This document shows positions 3,534-63,479 of a DNA stretch of 64,000 bases, piece after piece. The notes under the pieces are model-generated. The model did no database searches. It saw nothing but the letters and a program-made list of their open reading frames with translations, and was not told where the DNA came from. Source of the DNA: Candidatus Poribacteria bacterium (GTDB lineage: Bacteria; Poribacteria; WGA-4E; WGA-3G); contig PYJD01000008.1 in assembly GCA_003635315.1 (NCBI GenBank), positions 146,781-210,780 of the forward strand, given 5' to 3'. The position numbers were made by a program, and so were the translations under genes. Numbering within the stretch: the first letter of the stretch is position 1; the number at the start of each line of letters is the position of its first letter.

Positions 3534-5129
3534 TTAACTTAAGACATTTGCGTAGAAGAAAGGTGGCATAGTTAAAGCAACGACATCATCATCACCAGAT
3601 ATTTCTCGTGCCATTGCAAGAGCATCATCCAAGTTTTTTGCCCAATCAACCCCCAATCTTTTTGCAACCCCCGGATCTTTAGGTCCTACTAAGATCACTT
3701 TAGAAAGATATTTTAAGGGATATGTTGCCCAATACCAAACTGTAAATGGATGAAATCCATGATGTGCAAATTTATTTCTATAGCAATCAATTAGGAACTC
3801 ATCTTTTGCATATTTTTCCTGATATTTCTGTTGCATTTCAAATGGTTCGGTAGTGTCTGAAAGTACTTCATCATAGAACATCTTATATGCGACATGATAC
3901 TCATCGTGGAAAATCTCAAAGGTGGGATTCATTATAATGACAACACCATTTTCTTTTATAATCGGTTTATTATAGAACCAATTAAATACGTAACCCAAAA
4001 TATCACTGACAACCAGAACAGGATTAATTCGTGCATCCACAGCATAAGGACTCATATCTGGAAGACCAAAAACTAAAGTACTATACTGTCGAGGAATATC
4101 AATTGATAACTGTTCCTTCATCATATCTAAAGTTTTTTCATGAACAGAATCAATATCTCCTGCATTTATACCAATTGGTTCATAGTCCGTGCGAACACTC
4201 TTTAATATCTTATATCTGATAGATTCTGGGAGGAGAGATAGTGTTGGGGGAGTAAACGATTTTATTACCTTTTCTAAGATGTTGCAATCTTTATTTGGTT
4301 TGCCAACATACTTCAGATGGAAAGGATATAATGCGCCATTCATTGCTGCTTCAAGGACAAGAATAGGTGTTTCTTTCTGAATTAGTCGACTCATCCTTTC
4401 AATGCATGCATGCATATGTGAACCATCAGGCTGCATTACATGTGGACTCTCTGCTGTCATATGTGGAGAATGGTGTGGTGCAATTGAATTATATGTTCCA
4501 AGTCCAACAGCAACAGATTTATGTCCTCCATTCAACGGAATCTGAATCATATCTACATATATTACTAAATCAGAATCAAGAACAACTTTATCCGTCTCAA
4601 CAATTTCATCATTTTCTGTTTTTCCAACTTCAACAATTTGTGTTGAATCTTCTGCATCGAAGTTTCTCAGTTGATTTGGATAGAACTCATTCATAATGTT
4701 TTTACCTAACATATAAGTGAGTTCAGCTTCTTTCATTTTCCGATGTAAAGCCACAGCACACATCAATTGAATATTCTTTTTATCTACTCCATAGCTATAT
4801 AACATTTGAAGAAGTGTTTCAATCATGATCTGACGTAGGTCAGGTTTCTTTGTAGCAGGGAAAGGTTGACAATTATCATCAAATAGAATTAATACCTTTG
4901 AGTTTCCATCAACCAGATCTCTTAAAGGAGACATATTTAATGGGTTTTCAAATGCCTTTTGTGTATATTCTCGAATGGCTTCGCGTTTAATCCCAGGTAA
5001 GGGAGGCTTTGCATAGAATATATCAGAGTTATTAGGTATTCTTGCATTAATGAGATGGTTGCCGAAGTATGTAAAATATTTCATTAATAGTATTATTGTG
5101 TATGTGTAATAGAGTATTAAAGTAATCAT
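3534..5129 (-). CDS. Lactate racemase (LarA)-like / DUF2088-domain protein; start may be ATG near 5081
   Basis: REAIREYTQKAFENPLNMSPLRDLVDGNSKVLILFDDNCQPFPATKKPDLRQIMIETLLQML. Confidence 0.65.
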   Translation of the reverse strand: MITLILYYTYTIILLMKYFTYFGNHLINARIPNNSDIFYAKPPLPGIKREAIREYTQKAFENPLNMSPLRDLVDGNSKVLILFDDNCQPFPATKKPDLRQIMIETLLQMLYSYGVDKKNIQLMCAVALHRKMKEAELTYMLGKNIMNEFYPNQLRNFDAEDSTQIVEVGKTENDEIVETDKVVLDSDLVIYVDMIQIPLNGGHKSVAVGLGTYNSIAPHHSPHMTAESPHVMQPDGSHMHACIERMSRLIQKETPILVLEAAMNGALYPFHLKYVGKPNKDCNILEKVIKSFTPPTLSLLPESIRYKILKSVRTDYEPIGINAGDIDSVHEKTLDMMKEQLSIDIPRQYSTLVFGLPDMSPYAVDARINPVLVVSDILGYVFNWFYNKPIIKENGVVIIMNPTFEIFHDEYHVAYKMFYDEVLSDTTEPFEMQQKYQEKYAKDEFLIDCYRNKFAHHGFHPFTVWYWATYPLKYLSKVILVGPKDPGVAKRLGVDWAKNLDDALAMAREISGDDDVVALTMPPFFYANVLS

Positions 5130-5330
5130 TGTATTATATCATATCAGTGAGTATTATTCAATTGTGTGATTTTGTAGTTTTGTAGTCCTTCTTTAGACTA
5201 AGAAATTACGATCCTTATTTCTAAGGGTTTTCATTTTTTCTGAACATTCCAAGCTACAGGTGATGTTACCAAAAAGAGACAAATTCATTTAGAAATGGTG
5301 GTTGAAATAATAGCCAAAATTAAACTTTTA

Positions 5331-5666
5331 ATCCTAATATACAGACGACTAATAAGGTGCAAAAACAGACCTTTAATCCTAATTTCCCAGATGATAAATC
5401 GTGATAATGTTGAATTTTTCAATTCGTCGAAAAAGTGAAAAAAGTTACACTTTTTCCTACATTTTGTAGGATTGAAATTGGTGTAAATTACCCCTCTAAC
5501 CACTGTCATAGACTGACTTTACTCGACTTTGAATTAACATTTTAAGAATTTGCAAAAAGTGTGATTTTGTGTTTTTGTTGTCCCTTTTAAATTTGGCAAT
5601 TCTAAGCTACATTATACTTCCAAAAATGGGTGATTTTTGACATAAAGAATTTTTTGTATTTAGGAT
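5331..5666. repeat. Non-coding dispersed element, copy 1 (hairpin-containing)
   Basis: Homologous to 57285-57623: paired TTTAATCCTAAT direct repeats, AAAAAAGTTACACTTTTT, variable hairpin, GGTGTAAATTACCCCTCTAACC core, and a terminal T(A/T)TTAGGATCGTTT. Confidence 0.85.
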
Positions 5667-6163
5667 CGTTTATACAGTGTGTCATGATTAATTCTCTAAT
5701 TATTTACTTCCCATAATAGTTATGATTCTTACATAGGATTTACACATATCATCTTATTATCTTAATTCAATTTTTTGCTTTGTAGTATATGTATGTTAAC
5801 CATATTTTCCGCTTCCCAGTAGTTATACTTGGGTAACGTTGTCAATTATGAGTATGTTGATAAAGTGCCAATATTCTGTAGTACTTGGTAATGTTAGATG
5901 TTAGATATGGATATATTCTTCATTATTTTTATTTTATTTAGTAATATTATCGGGTAGGGGAGGGTTTTGTGGTGAGTTGTTTGAATTTTGGATTTTACGG
6001 AATTATAGTCTGAATCACAGATATTATGGATTCCACGGAATTCGCAGAGAAGAGGCGTAGGTATCAGGTAAATTGTATTGTGTATGGATGGCTTCTTGGT
6101 GAGGTGGTTGTTGGAATATAATTCTATAGGTTTTATTTTTATTAGGTATTCCAGTTATTTTAT

Positions 6164-8610: not shown

Positions 8611-8783
8611 TTATACCAATTCTAAATAAATAGTTCTCTTAAATTCATATGTACTTCAAAATTCGGTGCGGTTCCAAACCGCACCTACCGTGTTTGGTGG
8701 AGTCGTTGCGGTTCCAAACCGCACCTACCAGGTTTGGTGGATGATGTCTATATGTCAGAATATTTCTTAGAAATGGTATTATA
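8611..8783. mobile_element. MITE-like element A (TIR family 1)
   Basis: TTATACCAATTCTAAATAAATA ... TATTTCTTAGAAATGGTATTATAA imperfect terminal inverted repeats; two internal ~40-bp units containing GCGGTTCCAAACCGC. Confidence 0.75.
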
Positions 8784-16615: not shown

Positions 16616-16754
16616 TTATAGTAAATTTTTGAATTAATGTAACATTTTGAGATGTAGGAGGGAACTCCGATTCCCGACTATCACTGCGTAAAATCGCGAT
16701 TCGGAAATCGCTCCTACAGGGATTTTGTGTTATTATTTTTAATGTTTACTATAA
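16616..16754. mobile_element. MITE-like element, TIR family 2, copy 1 (139 bp)
   Basis: TTATAGTAAA...TTTACTATAA ends; internal GATGTAGGAGGGAACTCCGATTCCC / ATCGCGATTCGGAAATCGCTCCTAC imperfect palindrome. Confidence 0.85.
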
Positions 16755-16756
16755 TT

Positions 16757-33729: not shown

Positions 33730-33846
33730 TATACCATTTCTATTTATGATTATCTCATTCCCGGTTGTTAGGATTGAAGCAAGGTAGACACCAACTGAAA
33801 GTTTGTGCTACAAAATAGAGAGTTATTCAATTAGAAATGGTATTAT
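33730..33846. mobile_element. MITE-like element C (TIR family 1)
   Basis: TATACCATTTCTATTTATGATTATCTCATTCCCGG...CACCAACTGAAAGTTTGTGCTACAAAATAGAGAG...TTAGAAATGGTATTA. Confidence 0.8.
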
Positions 33847-56313: not shown

Positions 56314-56889
56314 TTAATTTTCTTGTAATTCCTCTGTAATCCAGACATGAAGAATATGATTTAATATCAGATGAACATCTTCAACAGGTCCATATTGATT
56401 ACTGTCAACCACAACATTTACATCACAAATCGTTGCCAATTTACCTCCTCCAAAACCGCTCCATCCTATAGTCTTACATCCTATATCAGCTGCATGTTGC
56501 ATTGCGCGTAATACGTTCTCAGAATTCCCACTGGCACTTATCCCAATAACTACATCACCACTATTCACAAGATTCTTAAGTTGTTCAATAAATACATCCT
56601 CATAGGAAACATCATTAGACCAAGCGGTCATAGTTGCGATATTATCAGTTAAACTGATAACCTTGAATCGTGGTTTACTTGGCATACTTGTCCCTTTTCC
56701 AAGATCACATGCGATATGAGATGCAGTAGAGGCACTACCACCGTTTCCAATTACAAATATTTGTTTGTCGTTATAGTAACCATCCATAATAACATCTATG
56801 GATTTCCTAACATCTTCTATGTTTAGATGGTTTAATACCTCTTGAAGATGGGATATATACTTTTGAATTCTCTCCATATATTCGTTCAC
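56314..56889 (-). CDS. SIS-domain phosphoheptose isomerase-like (GmhA-like)
   Basis: IFVIGNGGSASTASHIACDLGKG, DVVIGISASGNSENVLRAM. Confidence 0.85.
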   Translation of the reverse strand: MNEYMERIQKYISHLQEVLNHLNIEDVRKSIDVIMDGYYNDKQIFVIGNGGSASTASHIACDLGKGTSMPSKPRFKVISLTDNIATMTAWSNDVSYEDVFIEQLKNLVNSGDVVIGISASGNSENVLRAMQHAADIGCKTIGWSGFGGGKLATICDVNVVVDSNQYGPVEDVHLILNHILHVWITEELQEN

Positions 56890-56984: not shown

Positions 56985-57219
56985 TTATACCATTTCTAAA
57001 TAATAGTTCTCTTAAATTCACATTTAATACTAAATTCGATGCGGTTCCAAACCACATCTACCGGGTTTGGTGGATGATGTTTATATGTAATACCATTTCC
57101 AAATTAATAGGTGTCATAAATACGCAGATTATATTATATTCGATGCGGTTCCAAACCGCATCTACCGGGTTTGGTGGATGATGTTTATATGTCATAATAT
57201 TTCTTAGAAGTGGTATTAT
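56985..57219. mobile_element. Composite MITE-like element D (TIR family 1)
   Basis: TTATACCATTTCTAAATAATAG...TAATACCATTTCCAAATTAATAG...TATTTCTTAGAAGTGGTATTATG; two GATGCGGTTCCAAACC(A/G)CATCTACCGGGTTTGGTGGATGATGTTTATATGT units. Confidence 0.8.
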
Positions 57220-57284
57220 GTTAAAAAAGAGATATTTTCATTTAGAAATAAGATTAGAATTCATAGCCGTAAATTGAACATTTA

Positions 57285-57623
57285 ATCCTAATATCCAAAC
57301 AACCCTATAAGGTGCAGAAACAGACATTTAATCCTAAATTCCCAGAGCAAAAATCGTGAAAATGATGACTTTTTCCCTGTGTCGAAAAAGTTCCAAAATT
57401 TGAAAAAAGTTACACTTTTTGACACATTGTGTGTCATTTAATTTGGTGTAAATTACCCCTCTAACCGCTGTCATAGCCTGACTTTACTCCACTTTAAATT
57501 GACTTTATAAGAATTTCCCAAAAGTGTGATTTTGTGTTTTTCTTGTTTTTATAGATTTTGACAATTCCAACAAGTATAATAAAGCAGGAATTTTGACATA
57601 AATAGAATCTTGTATATTAGGAT
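57285..57623. repeat. Non-coding dispersed element, copy 2 (hairpin-containing)
   Basis: Homologous to 5331-5666. Confidence 0.85.
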
Positions 57624-57808
57624 CGTTTTTATAGATAGTCATCGTTTATTCTCTATTTTTATATTTCTCTTAAATCTTAAAGATATTGATTTTTTCTGTC
57701 AATAAAGATGTCCAAACTGGATGTTTGCACTAAAAAAGTAGCTTTTGGTAATGTTAGATGTAATATTTAGATATTTTCTTCATTTTATTTTAAATTTTTT
57801 GATTTATT

Positions 57809-60994: not shown

Positions 60995-61133
60995 TTATAG
61001 TAAACTTTTGAATTAATGGTACATTTTGAGATGTAGGAGGGAACTCCGATTCCCAAATATCACTTAGTTAAATCGCGATTCGGAGATCGCTCCTACATGG
61101 ATTTTGTGTTATTATTTTCAATGTTCACTATAA
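60995..61133. mobile_element. MITE-like element, TIR family 2, copy 2 (139 bp)
   Basis: TTATAGTAAAC...GTTCACTATAA; same length and internal palindrome as 16616-16754. Confidence 0.85.
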
Positions 61134-61183
61134 TTTAGTCTTTTACATACAGTAGATAATATGTTAATATAATGTTGGGGTAA

Positions 61184-63299: not shown

Positions 63300-63370
63300 T
63301 TTTACCTCTATCTGAATTTTAAGGTTATATCTTGTTTCTTTTTGTACAATGATAGCATAAGTTATAGATT

Positions 63371-63479
63371 ATACCAATTCTATTTATGATTATCTCATTA
63401 CTGGCAGTTAGGAATGAAACACCGAAGACACAAACTGAAAGTTTGTGCTACAAAAAAGAGAGTTTAGCAATTACAATAC
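63371..63479. mobile_element. MITE-like element E (TIR family 1), right end degenerate or interrupted
   Basis: TTATACCAATTCTATTTATGATTATCTCATTACTGGCAGTTAGGAATGAAAC...CACAAACTGAAAGTTTGTGCTACAAAAAAGAGAG; homology to 33730-33846 ends at AATTA. Confidence 0.65.

Follow-up and report, generated by a model that had tools for sequence, protein, structure and literature searches.

What does a palindrome signify when two copies of the same repeat carry different versions of it, each still symmetric? The question arises from the window, a stretch of 64,000 nucleotides from a Candidatus Poribacteria draft genome, in which a sequence-only reading had described two ~340-nt intergenic copies of a dispersed non-coding element whose central hairpin covaries between them, and had offered a structured non-coding RNA or leader and a hairpin-ended, IS200/IS605-like transposon as candidates.

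The window copies belong to a large population of non-coding elements

Both copies, their motif order and both hairpin sequences were found where that reading had placed them (Table 1), and an identical AAAAAGTTACACTTTTT precedes the palindrome in copy 1 and copy 2. In the 4.33 Mb draft genome that contains the window (G000), the 22-nt core is matched exactly 43 times and nearly 68 times, compared with 0 for the reversed control, and a 501-nt query from copy 1 finds 40 places at E<1e-100, so that the two window copies lie far beyond chance. Rather than one of a pair, the element at 5331-5666 is one of ~69 copies of its family (type I) in the genome. Alignment of 68 unique copies also lengthened it: conservation is mostly >90% over 5327-5706 (~380 nt) and fades to ~5180 and ~5930, with no sharp common ends in local alignments of the copies. 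The view of a dispersed non-coding element, with coding a poor explanation of the minus-strand ORF at 5285-5509, proved right; the copies differ by insertions of 1 nt and of 9-11 nt and by numerous single-nucleotide deletions, the three codon phases are equally variable, and the reading frames are broken in most copies.

Table 1. Positions of the element copies, their parts and the adjoining genes in the window.
Feature	Position	Strand	Remarks
Palindrome, state A, CCTACA-TTT-TGTAGG	5456..5470	.	Copy 1
Palindrome, state B, GACACA-TTG-TGTGTC	57421..57435	.	Copy 2
Copy 1 conserved core, class A palindrome	5327..5706	-	Sense = minus, toward Lar_N gene; 68-copy alignment
Copy 2 conserved core, class B palindrome	57281..57663	-	Toward SIS-domain gene 56314-56889; alignment, Pfam
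AAAAAGTGTAACTTTTT (sense), the GTGTAAC block after the palindrome in every family	5439..5455	-	Copy 1
GTGTAAC block	57404..57420	-	Copy 2
GGTGTAAATTACCCCTCTAACC core	5480..5501	.	Copy 1; 43 exact genome copies
GGTGTAAATTACCCCTCTAACC core	57445..57466	.	Copy 2
Two direct repeats of TTTAATCCTAAT (5327-5338 and 5372-5383)	5327..5383	.	45 nt apart
Conserved sigma-70-like match, TTGACA-N18-TAGGAT	5637..5666	+	Putative; points away from Lar_N gene
Gene-proximal flank	5180..5326	-	Weaker conservation
Distal flank	5707..5930	-	Weaker conservation
Native promoter of Lar_N gene, TTGAAT-N17-TATAAT	5133..5161	-	Common to G011, without element there
Lar_N-domain gene downstream of copy 1	3534..5084	-	Start 5084 set by conservation in relatives
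SIS-domain gene downstream of copy 2	56314..56889	-	Pfam

The central module extends beyond this family. A profile search with the core found 145 places or more in G000, together with 71 in the genus-mate Candidatus Poribacteria SB0202 (G011), the additional places being other families that share only AAT-palindrome-AAAAAGTGTAAC(A)TTTT. By a near-complete pattern census (143 of 145 modules listed in G000), the module has at least 143 copies in G000, spread over several element families (43 of class A and 100 listed as class B, as defined below), and 97 in SB0202. Its presence is lineage-specific: the pattern ACA-N3-TGT-N2-4-AAAARTGTAAC gives 158 matches in G000 (some doubled by alternative registers) and 91 in SB0202 but none in the 16 other members of the genus or in reversed controls, and a pattern scan of named genomes matched SB0202 contigs only. 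Phage, plasmid and viral collections gave no match to the element. The genomes are draft metagenome assemblies, in which genes are simple ORF calls and family membership was assigned by similarity. Two other species (G007 and G013) contain an element (at L144, L149, L152 and L160 in G007 and at L145, L150, L157 and L161 in G013) with GAAAAGTGTAACATTTT behind an A-tract/T-tract (A6/T6) palindrome and with a CCCAGT...GGGTTTACAGG block. It is probably distantly related and would carry a third version of the palindrome.

Several further sequences accompany the elements. The long open frames that are shared upstream of families II and III are candidate genes at most; upstream of family 1 elements (L189-L210), a perfect inverted repeat of 12 bp, AAAAAGTTACGA-TT-TCGTAACTTTTT, recurs along with a long open stretch of putative coding status (..TKIGVTEKSYDFVTF..) that the loci have in common. 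The window itself contains other repeats: a dispersed one of 104 nt in tandem (TCGATGCGGTTCCAAACCGCATCTACCGGGTTTGGTGGATGATG) beside copy 2 at 56993-57200, also found at 8620-8782 (70-84% alike); a 141-nt repeat unrelated to the element at 16616-16756 and 60995-61135 (91% identical); and a 107-nt repeat at 33730-33836 and 63370-63476 (85% identical).

The palindrome occurs in two discrete states

The palindrome is found in state A (CCTACA-N3-TGTAGG) or state B (GACACA-N3-TGTGTC). Among the 68 type I copies 25 are of class A and 43 of class B, the latter including five with TGTGAC in place of TGTGTC and one with GGCACA, and both classes are present in families 0, 1 and 2. The arms are completely associated (1.0) at 5456/5470 and 5458/5468 (positions 1 and 3). 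The arms do switch together, as noted earlier from two copies, but they switch as a two-state block and not through a series of independent compensations. Two ancient subfamilies were considered as the cause of the two states and rejected, as class is scattered over the tree: it requires 19 changes, compared with 20.4 in shuffles, a comparison which, on a weakly supported tree, shows an absence of clustering and is not a count of events. Class is also nearly unlinked to the other variable columns, with 5474 as the single column of note, and a copy's nearest relative belongs to the opposite class at about the expected frequency.

Position 2 of class B is free to vary. The two half-sites read A/A in 77 cases, are mixed in 15 and read T/T in 2, with the arms independent of one another (Fisher p=0.24, n=94), and the deviations correspond to A.A, U.U, A.C or G.A, with just one simple G.U pair. 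Such variation, independent in the two arms and not through G-U, argues for two half-site specificities and against base-pair compensation. The sequence-only reading had proposed a compensated stem and had named arms that mutate without compensation as the observation that would speak against it; class B position 2 provides that observation. A free position of this kind resembles the behavior of degenerate protein half-sites, and the palindrome, which neighboring elements almost always carry in different versions, has more the look of a DNA recognition tag than of an RNA hairpin.

Elements are placed upstream of genes in a fixed orientation

For the type I copies with a callable left neighbor, the gene lying in the sense direction reads the same way as the element in 64 of 67 cases. 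Tandem contexts, counted over all module copies available, show the same preference, with the upstream orientation outnumbering the downstream one by 61:6 in G000 (36:1 for type I alone) and by 14:0 in SB0202. Convergent contexts account for 3 of 103 module copies; the corresponding figure for insertion sequences is given as 18.3% in a published survey (PMC9208149). The downstream genes have no common function (they include a class I tRNA synthetase, LepA, PurD, ThiI, cytochrome bd and sulfatases), few are related to one another, and neither a downstream gene nor a transposase was found to recur across the element loci.

The locus of copy 1 places the element more precisely. Five relatives keep the Lar_N gene beside an ADH gene, with 323-775 nt between them and without the element. 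In SB0202 the Lar_N gene is 85% identical, and the alignment with G000 continues through TTGAAT-N17-TATAAT and ends just upstream of it, where G000 carries the element. As this native promoter lies between the element and the Lar_N gene, copy 1 sits upstream of it, and the elements would, at least at copy 1, be additions upstream of native promoters. Abutting the native −35 box is a degenerate second copy of GGACAACAAAAACACAAAATCACAC (5164-5188; the other is at 5559-5583), hinting at remnants of another element. Promoter-like matches inside the elements are clear only in family 2 (TTGACA-N18-TATAGT, toward the gene) and family 0 (best match TTGACA-N18-TAGGAT, away from the gene), and any promoter activity of their own is putative.

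The absence of the element from the same locus in relatives makes non-autonomous mobility in general plausible. Five genes carry elements in both G000 and SB0202, with the gene-proximal part aligning and the family and position of the element differing, so most of these elements were acquired separately; five common genes among 43 sampled in SB0202 is somewhat above the 1-2 that we estimate by chance. The genes downstream of elements L175 (G000) and L214 (SB0202) encode proteins that are 99% identical over 313 aa, compared with 78-93% for the other genes with elements in both species, which suggests a recent transfer between the two species.

Close neighbors on the same strand almost always carry opposite classes

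In G000, 15 of 16 pairs of same-strand neighbors within 2.5 kb combine an A with a B (shuffles: 6.8 expected, p=5e-5), the sole exception being a B/B pair 1213 nt apart. Class B is rare in SB0202 (14 of 97 modules), yet all six close neighbor pairs there are heterotypic (1.5 expected, p=3e-4, shuffles). The rule persists when classes are shuffled within families (p=1e-4 and 0.03, sequenced subset). Six heterotypic pairs are built alike, a family 2 element of class B being followed by a family 0 element of class A, and may derive from a single composite by copying; with each arrangement type counted once, 7 of 8 are heterotypic in G000, and among these families 0 and 2 combine in both ways, A with B and B with A, respectively.

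The reading that we prefer, and to which we give an even chance of being correct, is that these are dispersed, non-coding, non-autonomous elements positioned in a fixed orientation ahead of native promoters, with the palindrome a putative protein site in two specificities. The palindrome would be bound as double-stranded DNA by a dimeric protein, with half-site CCTACA in A and GNCACA in B, and GTGTAAC would form an invariant third contact. We infer that the specificity is functional from the near-constant pairing of one A with one B where two same-strand elements lie within ~2.5 kb. Like sites in direct repeat might be removed or excluded, either because they recombine with each other or through an immunity specific to their class; or else a promoter or gene might keep a second element only if its input differs. 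No binding protein, transposase or recombinase linked to the elements was found. A palindromic protein site alone would neither need nor explain a fixed orientation; the directional parts of the elements are GTGTAAC, on one side, and the promoter-like matches of families 2 and 0. A wider proposal, which we put forward tentatively as possible and no stronger, is that the genome uses two orthogonal DNA address tags, read by two partner proteins, the tag being exchanged independently of ancestry and like tags being unable to persist as direct-repeat neighbors.

The same observations may be approached from ordinary, function-free MITE-like repeats, with placement resulting from insertion preference and purging and with the palindrome a transposase recognition site, its two classes serving two transposases. 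Such repeats would be dispersed, lineage-specific, mosaic with other repeats and absent at orthologous loci, as the elements are, and the neighbor rule could stem from target immunity within a class or from excision between ends of the same kind. However, the palindrome is internal to ~700 nt of shared sequence in which neither terminal inverted repeats nor sharp ends were seen, the core is far better conserved than the flanks, unlike in neutral decay, and Y1 transposases do not track the element; we consider this explanation unlikely.

RNA pairing and templated repair explain less

A leader or small RNA transcribed from the minus strand, its hairpin kept by compensatory change, would account for arms that covary strongly, beyond slid and shuffled controls, and for the fixed orientation relative to genes. 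RNAalifold predicts only one short stem, extended by TTACAC/GTGTAA as its outer part, but these outer pairs are never compensated: they are invariant in this family and missing in the others, and hence uninformative. Likewise, nothing about pairing follows from the inner ACA/TGT or from the GTGTAAC block, as neither varies. In the first hairpin, AAAAAGT-TAC-ACTTTTT, one pair is an uncompensated T.T in several copies, so it is not evidence for pairing either. Pair counts give 44 double changes, compared with 17.5 in shuffled data, but these arise from the two blocks, and further pair types are few (7 observed, 8.9 shuffled). Together with the freely mismatching position 2 of class B, the native promoter that intervenes between element and gene at copy 1, and Rfam scans at gathering and relaxed thresholds that returned no family, these results render the structured RNA suggested earlier improbable, and they warn that a palindrome whose arms change symmetrically can be mistaken for a covarying RNA stem.

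Templated mutation is known to occur at palindromes, and a process in which one arm templates repair of the other in a hairpin would also keep the arms matched without selection, but this origin of the symmetry is highly improbable, as it predicts many symmetric sequences and perfect repair where there are two classes only, with 15 of 94 class B palindromes asymmetric at position 2, and it leaves the A/B alternation of neighbors unexplained.

Dispersed repeats are usually taken as decaying clutter; here, one short module is common to unrelated element families, and its two interchangeable versions and the neighbor rule make a hidden protein partner and its specificity directly testable.

Comparison with known systems

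The IS200/IS605-like candidate (PATE) is not supported: such elements have hairpins at their ends, whereas here the palindrome is internal and conservation runs well past it on both sides. The co-distribution expected of a Y1 transposase is also lacking (PF01797 occurs in 16 of 18 genus genomes, the module in 2), and it was rejected as a partner. Integron attC sites were set aside by eye, as the elements match the GTTRRRY/RYYYAAC boxes neither in their order nor in their letters. REP/REPIN sequences and their RAYT transposases (GTAG-tagged palindromes, PMC3733652) are likewise high-copy extragenic palindromes, but here the palindrome is flanked by AAT/AAAAAG instead of a GTAG/CGTC foot and is embedded in a long conserved element, and Y1 genes do not track it.

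The alternating pdif sites of dif modules (Acinetobacter, PMC13141974) offer an analogy only, in that types of recombination site mark neighboring modules; here no Xer-like core was recognized and no recombination is shown, and the rule concerns two palindrome classes in direct repeat. Closer are the small mobile repeats and MITEs (Correia, CIR, RUP and ERIC; PMC2229807), which are also short, intergenic, non-autonomous and of high copy number and may carry binding sites. The elements are, as MITEs are, dispersed, non-coding and absent at the same locus in relatives, and differ in that no terminal inverted repeats or sharp ends were found, in a strong orientation bias, and in comprising several families that have a single module in common. 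Short inverted motifs, ATCCTAA/TTAGGAT, do lie at ~5331 and ~5665, with conservation extending past them; no target-site duplications were found.

Putative mobile promoters (Matus-Garcia et al. 2012, as cited in PMC9208149) are described there as similar non-coding sequences before unrelated genes in the same orientation, and the elements likewise place homologous upstream sequence before non-homologous genes in a fixed orientation. Relative to that description, there are ~140+ copies united by one palindrome module, a native promoter separates element and gene at the locus examined, and a promoter of its own is a sequence match in some families. The elements are best read as comparable to mobile promoters or regulatory MITEs.
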